From positions 248,001 to 312,000 of the forward strand of contig CALDSU010000004.1 in assembly GCA_937924525.1 (NCBI GenBank): a stretch of 64,000 bases of DNA, written 5' to 3'. Shown one piece after another: positions 35,586 through 40,998 of this stretch. Origin of the DNA: an uncultured Bryobacteraceae bacterium (lineage in GTDB: Bacteria > Acidobacteriota > Terriglobia > Bryobacterales > Bryobacteraceae). Each line of letters begins with the position of its first letter. Positions within the stretch are counted from its first letter, which is position 1. The translations under genes and the position numbers were made by a program. A model generated the notes under the pieces. It had not been told where the DNA came from. It made no database searches and worked only from the letters and a program-made list of their open reading frames with translations.

Positions 35586-36518
35586 TCAACACCCTTCCGC
35601 CAGCAGCGCCCCCCAATGAAAGCCCGCGCCAAAAGCGGCGAAGACCACGGGCTCGCCGTGGCGGAATCCGTGCGCATCGCTCCACTCCCGGGCCGCGATG
35701 AGCAAGGACGCCGAAGAGGTGTTGCCGTACAGATGGATGTTCGAGAAGAACCTTTCCGGCGGGACCGCCAGGGCTTCCGCGATGCGGACGATCAGGTGCT
35801 GGTTGGCCTGATGCATCAGGAAACAAGCAATCTCCGCGGGAGCCCGCCCGGCCGCGCTGAGCAGTTCCTCGATCGCGCGGGGGACCTTGCGCGAGGCCTG
35901 CAAAATGACGCTCCGGCCGTTCATCTCGAGCGGCTTGCCGAATTCGAGGCGGAGATCTTCGGCGTAAGCGCCATCGGAGTGCAACACGGAGGAGACCACC
36001 CGCGCGATGCCGCCGGCCGCCGACAGCAGCGCCGCCCCCGCGCCGTCGCCGAACAGCATCGCCGTGCCTCGGTTCGTCGCGTCGAGCTGCACGGCGGAGG
36101 ACATCTTTTCCGCGGCCACTACCAGCACCGTGCCATAGGCGTCGCATAATTGCGCTCCCAAGGCGAGCGCAAACAGCGAACCGGCGCTTGCCAGCGGCAC
36201 GTCCAGCGCCGGCGTTTCCCCGAGGCCTAACGCGGCGGCGACCGAAGCCGCCGGTCCGGGAAACCGGCGTTCCGCCGAACCGCTGGCCACCAGCAGGAGT
36301 CGCACCTGACCGGGCGCCACCCCGCACCGTTGCAGGCAATCCTGCCCCGCGCTTACCGCCAGCGCCGCCACCGTTTCCTCCTCGGCGGCATAGCGGCGCT
36401 CCTCGATGCCGGACACGTTGCGGATCCACTCTTCGGTGGTCTCCATCAACGGAGCGATCTCCGCGTTGCGGACCACGCGTACGGGAGCATAGGAGCCAAA
36501 CCCTCGGAAAAAAGCCAC
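35586..36518 (-). CDS. KASIII/FabH-like protein with Ser in place of catalytic Cys
   Basis: A 310-residue thiolase-fold protein like FabH. Aligned by eye to FabH, the nucleophile site DVAAACAGF is DVPLASAGS, so the Cys is Ser111. The other catalytic residues remain: His236 in MHQANQ and Asn266 in YGNTSSAS, and the GDGAGAA loop is normal. Ser-type KASIII homologues such as DpsC act as acyltransferases that move an acyl group from CoA to a carrier protein rather than condensing. It is the last gene of the MBOAT-SGNH-SGNH-ACP operon, so I infer it loads that ACP. Confidence 0.88.
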   Translation of the reverse strand: MAFFRGFGSYAPVRVVRNAEIAPLMETTEEWIRNVSGIEERRYAAEEETVAALAVSAGQDCLQRCGVAPGQVRLLLVASGSAERRFPGPAASVAAALGLGETPALDVPLASAGSLFALALGAQLCDAYGTVLVVAAEKMSSAVQLDATNRGTAMLFGDGAGAALLSAAGGIARVVSSVLHSDGAYAEDLRLEFGKPLEMNGRSVILQASRKVPRAIEELLSAAGRAPAEIACFLMHQANQHLIVRIAEALAVPPERFFSNIHLYGNTSSASLLIAAREWSDAHGFRHGEPVVFAAFGAGFHWGALLAEGC

Positions 36519-36521
36519 GAT

Positions 36522-36755
36522 TTACCGGCGCGACTCCAGATAGGCCTCAATGCGCGCGAGCGATTCGAATTTCCGCGGCGCCAGGTCGGCGTCCGGTATG
36601 GAGATGCCGAACTCCTTTTCCAAGCGGCTCACCAGATCGGGGAGCGCGAACGAATCCAACACGCCGGAGTCGAACAGCGACTCCTCCGGGTCCGGGGGAA
36701 GCGGCTTCTTGGCGACCTGCTTGACGATCTCACTGATCTGCGCTTGGGGGTTCAT
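36522..36755 (-). CDS. Dedicated acyl carrier protein of the acylation operon
   Basis: A 77-residue carrier protein. Ser35 in GVLDSFAL is the likely phosphopantetheine site, and the LFDSGVLDS lead and LEKEFGI helix are those of DltC/NRPS-type carriers more than of AcpP. It is encoded between a KASIII-like gene (3-base gap) and an SGNH gene whose end it overlaps by 26 bases. Its job is probably to hold the acyl group used by the membrane acyltransferase. Confidence 0.88.
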   Translation of the reverse strand: MNPQAQISEIVKQVAKKPLPPDPEESLFDSGVLDSFALPDLVSRLEKEFGISIPDADLAPRKFESLARIEAYLESRR

Positions 36756-38193
36756 CGACGTCCGCCGGGTCCTGCGGAAGAGGAAAGGCCTGTCCCAACC
36801 GCTCTTCGCGAACCTTCAGGAATCTCCGATAATTGTACATCAGGTCCTCGAAAAGCGCCGCGCCGATGCGGCGGTAACCGGCCGAGGTGAAGTGCACATG
36901 ATCGCCCTGCGCCAAGCCCGCGTATACCCAGGAGCGCATGGCGCCTGCGCCGCCCATCTTTTCGCGCAGATCCCAGAACGCGCACCCGCTCGCCCAAGCC
37001 GCTTCCCGCTGGGCGGCGATGATGCGGTCGACCCGGGCATAGGGCGCCCAGCGGCCGCGCACCCGGGAATAACGGTCCGGAGGCCCTATCACCAGAATCG
37101 AAGCCGCCGGCGCGGCGGCGCGGAATTTGGCCAGCAGCGCGGCGAACATCTCGCGGTAGGTCTCCTGCGTCCACTCGGGATTGCCCGCCTCGTTGGTGCC
37201 ATAGGCGAGCACGATCAGGGCCGGATTCCGCCGCGCCAACTGGCTGGCCAACAGATCGGCGTCCCACCGAAACACAATAGAGGCTTGCGCCCCGTTGATC
37301 CCCAGCGCCTCGTACGTCACGCCGCGGTCCTCTTCGGTAACCCAGCCAAACAGCCGGACCGGCGCCGCCTGCACAGTCCGCAGCTCGAACCGGTGCCAGC
37401 CGGGCTCCACGGCCAGCGAATAATAACCGGGGCCCAACTCCCCGGCCGTTTCCACCGTGCCGGCCTCCACGCCATTGTCGAACAGCGTCAGAGCGCCTCC
37501 GCCGGGCTGCCGCAAGTATAGAATTTCGAGCCGCGCGCACTCGGCTTCCAGCGTGACGAATTCGTGGGGCCGCGTCGTTGAGATGCTGACCCCGCCCAGC
37601 CCCCAAAGTCCGTCCCCTTCCCGCGCCAGCAGGCCTTCGGATTTCCAGTTGCGCGAAGCGCCGGTCTTCAAATCCCACCGGCGGTAGCCCGCAAAGGGGC
37701 GCCCGGCCAACGAGAAGCCGCTGCCGCCGCGGCCGAACTCTGCCTGGAGCAACTCCCGGATCTGGTGCGTCCAGTCGTCGGCGGCGGTATGCGAATCGCC
37801 GTAGTGAAGAATCCGCAGCGGTTCGCCGCCCGGCGTTTGTTGCGCGCGGTAAAGCTGCTCGAAGAAAGGCACCAGGGCGCGCGGGTTCTCGATCGCTACG
37901 GTTTCGCTGGTCCGTTGCAAGGTGGCCGCTACGGCCTCAGCGGCTTCCGCGCGCTGGGCAGCCGCTACGCGCACGGCGGGCGTTCGCCGGACCAGGCGGG
38001 CTCTGCGTTTCACAGCGGCCCGGCGGGGATTCTTCGCTGCCGGCTGCTTCGCGGCGGCGGGCGCCGCCGAGGCCCTTCGCGCCGCAGTGCGGGAGGCTTT
38101 CTTTTTGGCCGCCGTCACGGCTTCTCCCTGAGCCACCCAAACAGGCAGGATCGCCAGCCAAAAGCCCACCGCCTGCCTGCGCGCAAACCTCAT
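36730..38193 (-). CDS. SGNH/GDSL-family protein B, exported, with basic linker
   Basis: A 487-residue protein with an N-terminal membrane anchor or signal, then about 80 residues rich in Lys, Arg and Ala, then an SGNH hydrolase domain. Block I is YGDSHTAAD (Ser134), the Asn/Gly blocks include AYGTNEAG, and the catalytic Asp-His is in GDHVHFTSAGY. A beta-sandwich-like insert lies between block I and the rest. Such proteins (AlgX, AlgJ, DltD) move acyl groups onto outside glycans. It is a paralogue of the next gene, with a similar order of motifs. Confidence 0.88.
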   Translation of the reverse strand: MRFARRQAVGFWLAILPVWVAQGEAVTAAKKKASRTAARRASAAPAAAKQPAAKNPRRAAVKRRARLVRRTPAVRVAAAQRAEAAEAVAATLQRTSETVAIENPRALVPFFEQLYRAQQTPGGEPLRILHYGDSHTAADDWTHQIRELLQAEFGRGGSGFSLAGRPFAGYRRWDLKTGASRNWKSEGLLAREGDGLWGLGGVSISTTRPHEFVTLEAECARLEILYLRQPGGGALTLFDNGVEAGTVETAGELGPGYYSLAVEPGWHRFELRTVQAAPVRLFGWVTEEDRGVTYEALGINGAQASIVFRWDADLLASQLARRNPALIVLAYGTNEAGNPEWTQETYREMFAALLAKFRAAAPAASILVIGPPDRYSRVRGRWAPYARVDRIIAAQREAAWASGCAFWDLREKMGGAGAMRSWVYAGLAQGDHVHFTSAGYRRIGAALFEDLMYNYRRFLKVREERLGQAFPLPQDPADVDEPPSADQ

Positions 38194-38196
38194 CGG

Positions 38197-39588
38197 CTAC
38201 CGGCGCCCCGTCCTTTCGGCCGGCCGAACCCCGGCTTGGGTGAACCGCTGTTGCATCTTTCGCACCTTATATCGATTGAACCCTTCGAGCAGCGCTTGGT
38301 ACATCAGCTTGCCGACGATGCGCGCCCCTGCCGGCAGCGGGTGGATGAAATCGCCGGCTACCAGCCGCGGCTCCGCCTCGTACCAGCGGCCCATCGTGCC
38401 CGGTCCTCCCATCGCCTGGTAGGTGTCGAAGAAAGCGCAGCCGGTTTCCAGCGCCACCTGCCGTTGAATCGCCGCCAGTTTGGGGATGCCCGGGAGCGTC
38501 CCGATGGCGCCGCCCGGCTCCCGCTGGCCCCGGTCCATGGGACTCATGATCAGAATCGAAGCTTGCGGCGTCGCAGCGCGCACGCGCCGAATGATCTCCT
38601 TTAGCTCCTTAGTGTAGTACTGATCAATATACGACAGATAGCCGCTCTCATTGGTGCCGTAATTGATCACCACCAGGTCCGGCCGCGCCCGCGCCAGTTG
38701 GGCCGCCCAATGCCGCTCGTGGAAAATGCGCGCCAGGATGTACACGGAAGCGCCGTTCAGGCCGATACTGTCGTACATCACACCCGCGTTCTGCTTGCGG
38801 AACACCGCGCCAAACAGGCGGACCGGCCCTTCGGCGTGCGCCTCGAATTCCCGCGCTGGCCGGGGCGTCCGCAACTCGGTGAAACCGGGGGAAACCGCCG
38901 CGGACGCGGTCTCCACCTTCCCCAGCATCTGCCCGTCGGCCACGATGCGCACGGCGCCGCCGCCCGGCTGGGTCAGGTATGAAAGTTCCAGCGACGTGTG
39001 GCCCGGATCGCGGAAAGTCCAGCGCGCCCATGCGCCCGCGGCTCCGCGAAAACTGACGCCGCCCAGCCCGTAGAACCCGTCGCGGGTCCGGTTCATCGTC
39101 GCCGCTTCCATCTCCCAGCCCGCAGCACGTAAGGTGACGCCCGCGTGGTCGTACCAGGCCCATGGCTTCGCCAGCAGGCAAAACCCGTGCCCCGCGTCGC
39201 CAAACTGGCGTTGCAGCAGACGGCGGACGTCCCCGGTGATCAGGTCGGCCGTCGTGGGCGAGTCCCCGTAATGCAGAACGCGCGCTACCGCCCCGGGCTG
39301 GCGTAATTCAGTCTGGTGCAACGCTTCGTAGAACGCGTCCAGGGCCCCTTCCGCTCCCGTGATGCGGAACACGGGAGCGCCGCCGGCGACGCGCTCGGTG
39401 GAAACCCGCGGTTCTTCCTCTGCCGCCGCAGCCGCGGGGTTTACCCGGGGCTGGAAGTCCACCACCGCCGGAATCCTCCGCCAGTCCAGCAACTGATAGT
39501 CCTGCAATTGCTCCACCTGGTGCGGCACGGCGAGTAAGACGGCCAGCGTCAGGATAACCAGCGACGGCTTGGACGGGGGCAGGCGCAT
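38197..39588 (-). CDS. SGNH/GDSL-family protein A, exported
   Basis: A 463-residue protein with one N-terminal membrane segment (LVILTLAVLLAVPH). The SGNH blocks are YGDSPTTAD (Ser110), NYGTNESG and GDFIHPLPAG. It shares with protein B the DGxxGLGGVS and YLTQPGGGA/YLRQPGGGA stretches, showing recent or functional duplication. It has no basic linker. It starts 6 bases after the MBOAT gene ends, and is separated from protein B by 3 bases, as expected for proteins acting with the membrane acyltransferase. Confidence 0.88.
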   Translation of the reverse strand: MRLPPSKPSLVILTLAVLLAVPHQVEQLQDYQLLDWRRIPAVVDFQPRVNPAAAAAEEEPRVSTERVAGGAPVFRITGAEGALDAFYEALHQTELRQPGAVARVLHYGDSPTTADLITGDVRRLLQRQFGDAGHGFCLLAKPWAWYDHAGVTLRAAGWEMEAATMNRTRDGFYGLGGVSFRGAAGAWARWTFRDPGHTSLELSYLTQPGGGAVRIVADGQMLGKVETASAAVSPGFTELRTPRPAREFEAHAEGPVRLFGAVFRKQNAGVMYDSIGLNGASVYILARIFHERHWAAQLARARPDLVVINYGTNESGYLSYIDQYYTKELKEIIRRVRAATPQASILIMSPMDRGQREPGGAIGTLPGIPKLAAIQRQVALETGCAFFDTYQAMGGPGTMGRWYEAEPRLVAGDFIHPLPAGARIVGKLMYQALLEGFNRYKVRKMQQRFTQAGVRPAERTGRR

Positions 39589-39594
39589 GGACCT

Positions 39595-40998
39595 TCAGAA
39601 CTGCGTGTAAATGAACGGGGCGGCCCCCGTCCCGGCCACGTGTTGCAACGCCATGGCCAGCAACATGAGCGTAGCAGCCTGGGCGTAGAACGGGATGCGG
39701 GCGTACTGGCGCTGCGACCACTGATACCAGCCCGCGGGCAGGTAATGCGCCACGGCGGCGATCGCCATCACCAGCGCCAGGCCGGGGGAAATGTTGGCGA
39801 ACGAAACGGTGGCGGACCCGATCTGCTCCAGGATCGCTCGCGCCGTCGCCAGGTCCGGCGCCCGGAACGGAATCCACGCCAGCACCACGAAGTGCCCGGT
39901 AAGCAGCGCCGCTGCCAGTTTGCCGGCGCGGCTCGTCGGTCCTTCGCCGCGCCACGTCCGCCATGCCCGCTGCACGGCCAGCGCCGCCCCGTGCAGCGCG
40001 CCCCACAGCACAAAATTCCAGCTTGCCCCGTGCCACAGCCCGCCCAGCGTCATGGTCACCAGCAGGTTCACGTAGGTGAAGATCTTGGACGGGGAACGCA
40101 ACCCGGGCAGGGAGAAATACAAGTAGTCCCGCAGCCAGTTGGATAACGTAATGTGCCACCGGCGCCAGAAATCGGCGATGTTCGCCGCGGCGTACGGCCG
40201 GTTAAAATTGGCCGGCAGCTTCAGCCCCAGCAGCAGCGCCGAACCGATCGCCAGGTCGGTGTATCCCGAGAAATCATAGTAGAGCTGCAGCGCATAACCG
40301 TACACGCCGATGGCCACCTCCGTCGCCGCGTACAGCTTTGGCAGGTCAAAAACGCGGTTGACCAGGTTGTCCGCCAGGTAGTCCGCAATCAGCAGTTTCT
40401 TGATGAGACCCAGTGCGATCAGGAACAGAGCGCGGCCGCTGTCTGCCGCGTCCAGCGTGCCCCCGGTTTTCTCGAGTTGCGGCATCAGCACCGCCGGCCG
40501 CGTGATCGGACCAGCCAGCGTGGTGGGGAAGAACGACACCGCGCTCAGGTAGGCCAGCAGGCTGCGCGCCGGCGGCGCGTCGCGGCGGTAGACGTCGATC
40601 GTATACGTCAGCGACTGGAAACAGTAAAACGAGATGCCCAGCGGGAAGGTCCAGTGCCAGGCGGGCGCCGGTTGCCCGGTGAGCGCGGCGTAGTTTTCCA
40701 GCAAGAACGCCATGTACTTGAACGACGCCAGCACGCCAAGATTCAGCAGCAGACTGGCCACGACCAGCGCCCGCCGGACCAGCGCCGAGCGGGTAGCCCC
40801 CATGCCGCGCGCGAGCAGGTAATCGACCGTCGACGCAGCGGGAATCAGCCCCAGGTAGAACAGGTCCCACTTGGCGTAGAAGAAATAGTTGGCGAAAAGG
40901 ATGACGGCCAGACCCGCCGCCCGCCAGCGCGACAGCGGCCAGTAGAGAAAAAATACTCCTGCCAGGAAGATGAAATAGGCGCTTCCGGAGAGGACCAT
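39595..40998 (-). CDS. MBOAT-family membrane O-acyltransferase (AlgI/DltB-like)
   Basis: A 467-residue protein with about 10-12 membrane segments. DFWRRWHITLSNWLRDYLY and GGLWHGASWNFVLWGALHG are the diagnostic motifs, with the catalytic His337 in the latter (His323 is also conserved). AlgI-type proteins carry acyl groups across the membrane to sugar acceptors, while DltB moves D-alanyl groups from DltC. It is the first gene of the operon with two SGNH proteins, an ACP and a KASIII-like protein. No polymer biosynthesis genes lie beside it. Confidence 0.93.
   Translation of the reverse strand: MVLSGSAYFIFLAGVFFLYWPLSRWRAAGLAVILFANYFFYAKWDLFYLGLIPAASTVDYLLARGMGATRSALVRRALVVASLLLNLGVLASFKYMAFLLENYAALTGQPAPAWHWTFPLGISFYCFQSLTYTIDVYRRDAPPARSLLAYLSAVSFFPTTLAGPITRPAVLMPQLEKTGGTLDAADSGRALFLIALGLIKKLLIADYLADNLVNRVFDLPKLYAATEVAIGVYGYALQLYYDFSGYTDLAIGSALLLGLKLPANFNRPYAAANIADFWRRWHITLSNWLRDYLYFSLPGLRSPSKIFTYVNLLVTMTLGGLWHGASWNFVLWGALHGAALAVQRAWRTWRGEGPTSRAGKLAAALLTGHFVVLAWIPFRAPDLATARAILEQIGSATVSFANISPGLALVMAIAAVAHYLPAGWYQWSQRQYARIPFYAQAATLMLLAMALQHVAGTGAAPFIYTQF

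Follow-up and report, generated by a model that had tools for sequence, protein, structure and literature searches.

A candidate peptidoglycan acylation operon in Acidobacteriota that joins PatA/Ape1-like proteins to a carrier protein and a Ser-type KASIII homologue

The described systems closest to the operon considered here are the PatA-PatB-Ape1 system of Gram-negative peptidoglycan O-acetylation, the Dlt system of D-alanylation (DltA, DltB, DltC, DltD, and DltX), and the alginate and cellulose O-acetylation systems (AlgI, AlgJ, and AlgX; Wss). MBOAT-SGNH pathways other than Dlt are reported to work without a carrier protein (PMC12148441). We analyzed a 64,000-nucleotide window of DNA from an uncultured Bryobacteraceae bacterium, in which five minus-strand genes at 35586-40998 encode an MBOAT acyltransferase, two SGNH proteins (SGNH1 and SGNH2), an acyl carrier protein (ACP), and a KASIII-like enzyme. 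A sequence-only reading of the window had taken these genes for one unit; its coordinates agree with the list of open reading frames (ORFs), which gives gaps of 6, 3, and 3 bases and a 26-base overlap of SGNH2 and ACP, and conservation across many genomes backs the conclusion that they form one unit. It had also known of no named system combining MBOAT, SGNH, ACP, and KASIII, and we found none in the open-licence papers searched. On balance we favor, with modest confidence, the reading that the operon encodes an envelope acylation system like that of PatA and Ape1, whose dedicated DltC-like carrier would be loaded by the KASIII-like enzyme, with peptidoglycan as the likeliest acceptor. Read in this way, the operon is a widespread apparent exception among MBOAT-SGNH pathways: The PatA/Ape1 side is joined to a carrier of the Dlt sort, and loading of the carrier apparently falls to an enzyme of the fatty-acid type whose nucleophile has been swapped.

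Linkage, rearrangement, and co-occurrence give good support for the coupling of the ACP-KASIII pair to the MBOAT and SGNH genes. When 84,980 species genomes were scanned, 80 best loci were obtained, all from Acidobacteriota by title except one titled Bordetella parapertussis (L082), which is Bryobacterales-like and probably carries a wrong title. All five genes are present at 41 of the 80 loci, which are spread across Acidobacteriota, bearing out the suggestion that the set co-occurs beyond Solibacter; 40 of these 41 keep one order as judged by ORF start coordinates, and ACP and KASIII lie beside SGNH2 at 58 of the 80. Because the gene set is conserved in many genomes, we do not regard it as a product of chance. 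In other Acidobacteriota families the five stay together, either as SGNH2-MBOAT-SGNH1-ACP-KASIII or with ACP and KASIII running on the other strand. KASIII is absent at 21 loci, at least three of which are cut by a contig end. Loci L148 and L149 carry a gene of ~180-190 amino acids between SGNH1 and ACP, the L148 copy having no Pfam match. In the genome of L023/L227, the ACP has no adjacent KASIII and is followed by a region with a transposase-like gene; the KASIII of the operon lineage that this genome has on another contig is of the Cys type.

Within a set of 41 genomes (the window genome and 40 relatives), the SGNH pair occurs in 10, and eight of these, including the window genome, hold the five genes together (in one of the eight, G003 (L022), KASIII runs off the contig end). 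Of the 10 genomes that have the SGNH pair, nine also have a Ser-type KASIII, and all 31 genomes without the pair lack this enzyme (hypergeometric value 2.9e-8, which ignores ancestry). Across 396 genomes of the phylum, 13 have a Ser-type KASIII, and the SGNH set accompanies it in 12, genome G140 being the exception. These counts bear on an explanation that we consider improbable, in which the operon houses two independent functions, the MBOAT and SGNH proteins acetylating the envelope from acetyl-coenzyme A (acetyl-CoA) while ACP and KASIII serve something else. Such a division is suggested by three-gene SGNH-SGNH-MBOAT operons that have neither ACP nor KASIII, found in Bacteroides, in Sphingomonas, and in other Acidobacteriota, and by the separation of the two halves in up to a quarter of loci. 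However, where the halves are not adjacent they still occur together, as 16 of 20 genomes having an SGNH locus without KASIII encode a Ser-type KASIII elsewhere, with an ACP directly upstream each time. That none of the 31 relatives lacking the SGNH pair has a Ser-type KASIII, and that the main groups of the MBOAT and KASIII trees match, likewise argues against independence. The three-gene operons include those of Bacteroides finegoldii (L232, 6728-10497) and a Sphingomonas (L233, 5967-9582), the latter near a gene for a cell wall hydrolase.

The MBOAT (39595..40998, 467 amino acids; ORF call, Pfam MBOAT 8e-29) has its catalytic His323 in GLWHG and ends in a FIYTQF motif containing Tyr464. An FxYxxF C-terminal acyl-shuttle motif was defined for PatA, where it carries the acyl group (PMC12148441). 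In the 80-locus set, every complete MBOAT ends in F.Y..F and the catalytic His is invariant. The operon MBOAT belongs with PatA and AlgI and carries a C-terminal shuttle motif of its own, and it shares the catalytic His and the motif with the PatA-PatB-Ape1 system. The alginate and cellulose systems also have an AlgI-type MBOAT with the C-terminal motif, but they have no carrier protein and use an AlgX-type SGNH protein. In the Dlt system, the MBOAT is without the motif and DltX is separate, whereas the operon has no DltX because its MBOAT carries the shuttle motif itself. In a PDB profile search with the MBOAT, DltB was the only match, and against the NCBIfam DltB model the window MBOAT scored 173, with a cut-off of 375. 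Carrier-linked MBOATs form one clade (support 99), which also holds L160, of unassigned type; the MBOATs of the three-gene operons from Bacteroides, Sphingomonas, and other Acidobacteriota, and that of G140, fall outside it. We rejected loss of LGGNR as a mark of carrier use: The motif is absent from all 69 readable carrier-linked MBOATs, but its loss is only suggestive because three of the eight readable others are also without it.

The ACP (36522..36755, 77 amino acids; ORF call, Pfam PP-binding 1.3e-10) has a phosphopantetheine site at Ser35 in LDSF. Among the named NCBIfam carrier models, DltC fits the family best, and it is matched by nine of nine members (best E 4.2e-14), with the window member under the cut-off. 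This fit to the DltC model stands beside differences, since Dlt relies on the ligase DltA where the operon has a KASIII-like protein, and the SGNH proteins of the operon are Ape1-like. With no AMP-forming ligase gene in the operon, we ruled out a ligase-driven Dlt system. The proposal that a dedicated KASIII-like partner, rather than a ligase, serves the ACP held up: The operon has no ligase, and the two genes are linked and co-occur in relatives. Nor is the pair an artifact: A spurious ACP or a frameshifted FabH is excluded because dozens of genomes retain both genes with every catalytic residue intact, and because the source genome has a separate FabH and a housekeeping ACP.

Both SGNH proteins point to peptidoglycan as the acceptor, because both are Ape1-like. 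SGNH1 (38197..39588, 463 amino acids; ORF call, Pfam Lipase_GDSL_2 5.4e-19) has, by inspection, an N-terminal membrane anchor, followed by Ser110, Asp413, and His416 and a beta-sandwich insert. SGNH2 (36730..38193, 487 amino acids; ORF call, Pfam Lipase_GDSL_2 2.6e-17) has, also by inspection, a signal sequence and a basic Ala/Lys/Arg linker, together with Ser134, Asp431, and His434, so that Ser, Asp, and His are retained in both. The five best PDB fold matches of the SGNH1 model (predicted local distance difference test (pLDDT) 80.0) are all Ape1 peptidoglycan O-acetylesterases, among them 4k3u (TMt 0.87), which we take to be Neisseria meningitidis Ape1, and two Campylobacter jejuni entries. 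In a profile search, SGNH2 also matched Ape1 first (E 1.2e-51 to 4k3u) and is Ape1-like across its full catalytic part. The Ape1-like SGNH esterase architecture with a carbohydrate-binding insert is therefore present, in SGNH1 by fold and in SGNH2 by profile, and together with the lack of polymer genes nearby it is a further likeness to PatA-PatB-Ape1. The main contrasts with that system are that the operon has two Ape1-like SGNH proteins, with no match to PatB structures, and that PatAB works without ACP or KASIII from acetyl-CoA (PMC12148441), whereas the operon has a dedicated KASIII-like enzyme and a dedicated, co-inherited ACP.

Several observations weigh against a peptidoglycan acylation system fed by a carrier. 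The PatB structures (7TJB and 8TLB) are not among the profile and fold matches listed for SGNH1 and SGNH2, the window ACP falls far under the DltC cut-off (33.8 against 68 bits), and the DltB segment that binds DltC is not conserved in the operon MBOAT. Because PatA, with the same C-terminal motif, takes acetyl-CoA directly (PMC12148441), carrier use by the operon MBOAT is inferred from linkage. Finally, in G140 the ACP and Ser-type KASIII are found close to a different MBOAT, within a sugar-nucleotide cluster that includes a UDP-GlcNAc 2-epimerase and a DegT aminotransferase. In several genomes the separate ACP-KASIII pairs have as neighbors flagellin, FliD, or FliW, a GDP-fucose synthase, a family 2 glycosyltransferase, or a nucleotidyltransferase, and this placement beside flagellin and sugar-nucleotide genes could mean another target. 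These neighbors speak for a possible, though less probable, alternative in which a carrier feeds the acylation of a surface polysaccharide, lipopolysaccharide, or flagellar glycan rather than of peptidoglycan. Against it, the window operon itself has no adjacent polymer genes, rough clustering of flanking ORFs revealed no recurrent neighbor (many clusters being spurious antisense ORFs), and both SGNH proteins resemble Ape1, which acts on peptidoglycan. The pairs at L213, L217, L220, L222, L225, and L231 adjoin flagellin, FliD, or FliW, and in some cases sugar-nucleotide genes as well, hinting at a connection with flagellar glycans. Locus L226 (2943-15610) combines a Ser-type KASIII and an ACP with a UDP-GlcNAc 2-epimerase, a DegT aminotransferase, and a hexapeptide protein in a sugar-nucleotide cluster whose MBOAT belongs to another branch.

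The KASIII-like enzyme (35586..36518, 310 amino acids, GTG start; Pfam ACP_syn_III_C 1.1e-23) exceeds the NCBIfam PRK09352 cut-off, and its model (pLDDT 88.8) matches the FabH fold at a template modeling (TM) score of 0.92. As the sequence-only reading had proposed, its active site has Ser: Comparison of LASAG with AACAG identifies Ser111 at the place of the KASIII Cys, while His236 and Asn266 are retained, so that the Cys-His-Asn triad of FabH is not matched. The nucleophile is Ser and the His is kept in 84 of 84 Ser-type relatives, and the Asn in 83 of 83. In Escherichia coli FabH, Arg36 touches CoA and Arg249 touches ACP. Equivalents of both are absent from all 89 operon-lineage KASIIIs, while Arg249 is present in 18 of 18 FabH homologues from the same phylum, which also keep Cys and Arg36; the loss of Arg249 would fit a change of carrier partner. 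The source genome encodes a separate Cys-type FabH and its own housekeeping ACP. The FabH position Phe87, a pocket-capping residue thought to favor acetyl (PMC12664062), is Phe in 80 of 84 Ser-type enzymes.

In the KASIII tree, the operon lineage, with both Ser and Cys types, is a single clade apart from the FabHs (Shimodaira-Hasegawa-like approximate likelihood ratio test (SH-aLRT) 99), the FabH sample being those sequences retrieved with the operon KASIII as query and thus not neutral. Within the lineage, the Ser types form one clade and the Cys types another, so a single change of nucleophile suffices, and because the sister clade has Cys, this change took place inside the operon's own KASIII lineage. 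The lineage provides a naturally occurring replacement of Cys by Ser in a KASIII with a known operon context. Its Cys types are found at L148, L150, and L151, where they belong to operons of other Acidobacteriota families, and at L179 and L209, elsewhere in a genome holding the SGNH pair. Outside Acidobacteriota, a plasmid search for Ser-type KASIII returned matches below 40% identity, and the one locus inspected had no adjacent MBOAT.

What the enzyme does with its Ser is the subject of a further alternative, which we judge unlikely: that it is a condensing enzyme, forming acetoacetyl-ACP from an acetyl starter and malonyl-ACP, perhaps then reduced by a housekeeping reductase, with the MBOAT and SGNH proteins attaching acetoacetyl or 3-hydroxybutyryl. 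The retained FabH His and Asn, the Cys of the sister clade in the same operon type, and the priming ketosynthase DpsC, which has a Ser nucleophile (PMC12664062), are consistent with condensation. So is the viosamine island of Pseudomonas syringae (VioS KASIII, ACP, VioR, and VioB), which like the operon devotes a KASIII and an ACP to a glycan acyl group, in the island N-(3-hydroxy-1-oxobutyl) on flagellin glycan (PMC3927599). However, the island has a ketoreductase and an N-acyltransferase and no MBOAT-SGNH export step in its seven genes (PMC3927599), whereas neither a ketoreductase nor an N-acyltransferase is among the five operon genes by ORFs and Pfam. The change from Cys to Ser also resembles DpsC in a way that speaks against condensation, since DpsC transfers acyl groups to its ACP (PMC12664062), and PatA-like MBOATs are known for acetyl. 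The likeness to DpsC is partial: DpsC has a Ser-His-Asp triad (PMC12664062), in contrast to Ser-His-Asn with Asn266 at the FabH Asn position, and it is not among the best 50 fold matches of the KASIII model. We keep condensation and non-peptidoglycan glycan targets under consideration because of the neighbors of the separate ACP-KASIII pairs and the viosamine precedent. A narrower version, in which Ser-His-Asn KASIII condenses a four-carbon acyl group (acetoacetyl or 3-hydroxybutyryl) on the dedicated carrier and the MBOAT and SGNH proteins place it on peptidoglycan, we consider improbable; we know of no report of such a peptidoglycan modification.

Returning to the favored reading, in which KASIII loads the carrier by acyl transfer, AcpS would add phosphopantetheine to ACP Ser35, and the KASIII-like enzyme would take a short acyl group, most likely acetyl, onto Ser111 and pass it to the ACP thiol. 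The acyl-ACP may then dock on the cytoplasmic side of the MBOAT, like DltC on DltB, where His323 would move the acyl group to Tyr464 of FIYTQF, a step modeled on work with PatA and Dlt. One periplasmic SGNH protein would transfer the group from Tyr onto its own Ser and then to a glycan hydroxyl, and the other could be a second transferase or a matching esterase. Peptidoglycan is the most likely acceptor, given that SGNH1 and SGNH2 share the architecture of Ape1, including its carbohydrate-binding insert, and that no polymer genes are adjacent. With related clades that do and do not have a carrier, the choice of an MBOAT between CoA and carrier donors becomes testable.

The operon is flanked by a divergent gene for an aminoacyl-tRNA editing domain protein and by convergent genes for a PfkB kinase and a 2-keto-3-deoxy-6-phosphogluconate (KDPG) aldolase, so inspection of the flanking genes agrees with the earlier statement that no polymer biosynthesis genes adjoin it. 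Elsewhere in the source genome, an MBOAT and a neighboring SGNH protein of the AlgX type make up a separate acylation pair (L237, 1501-4045).
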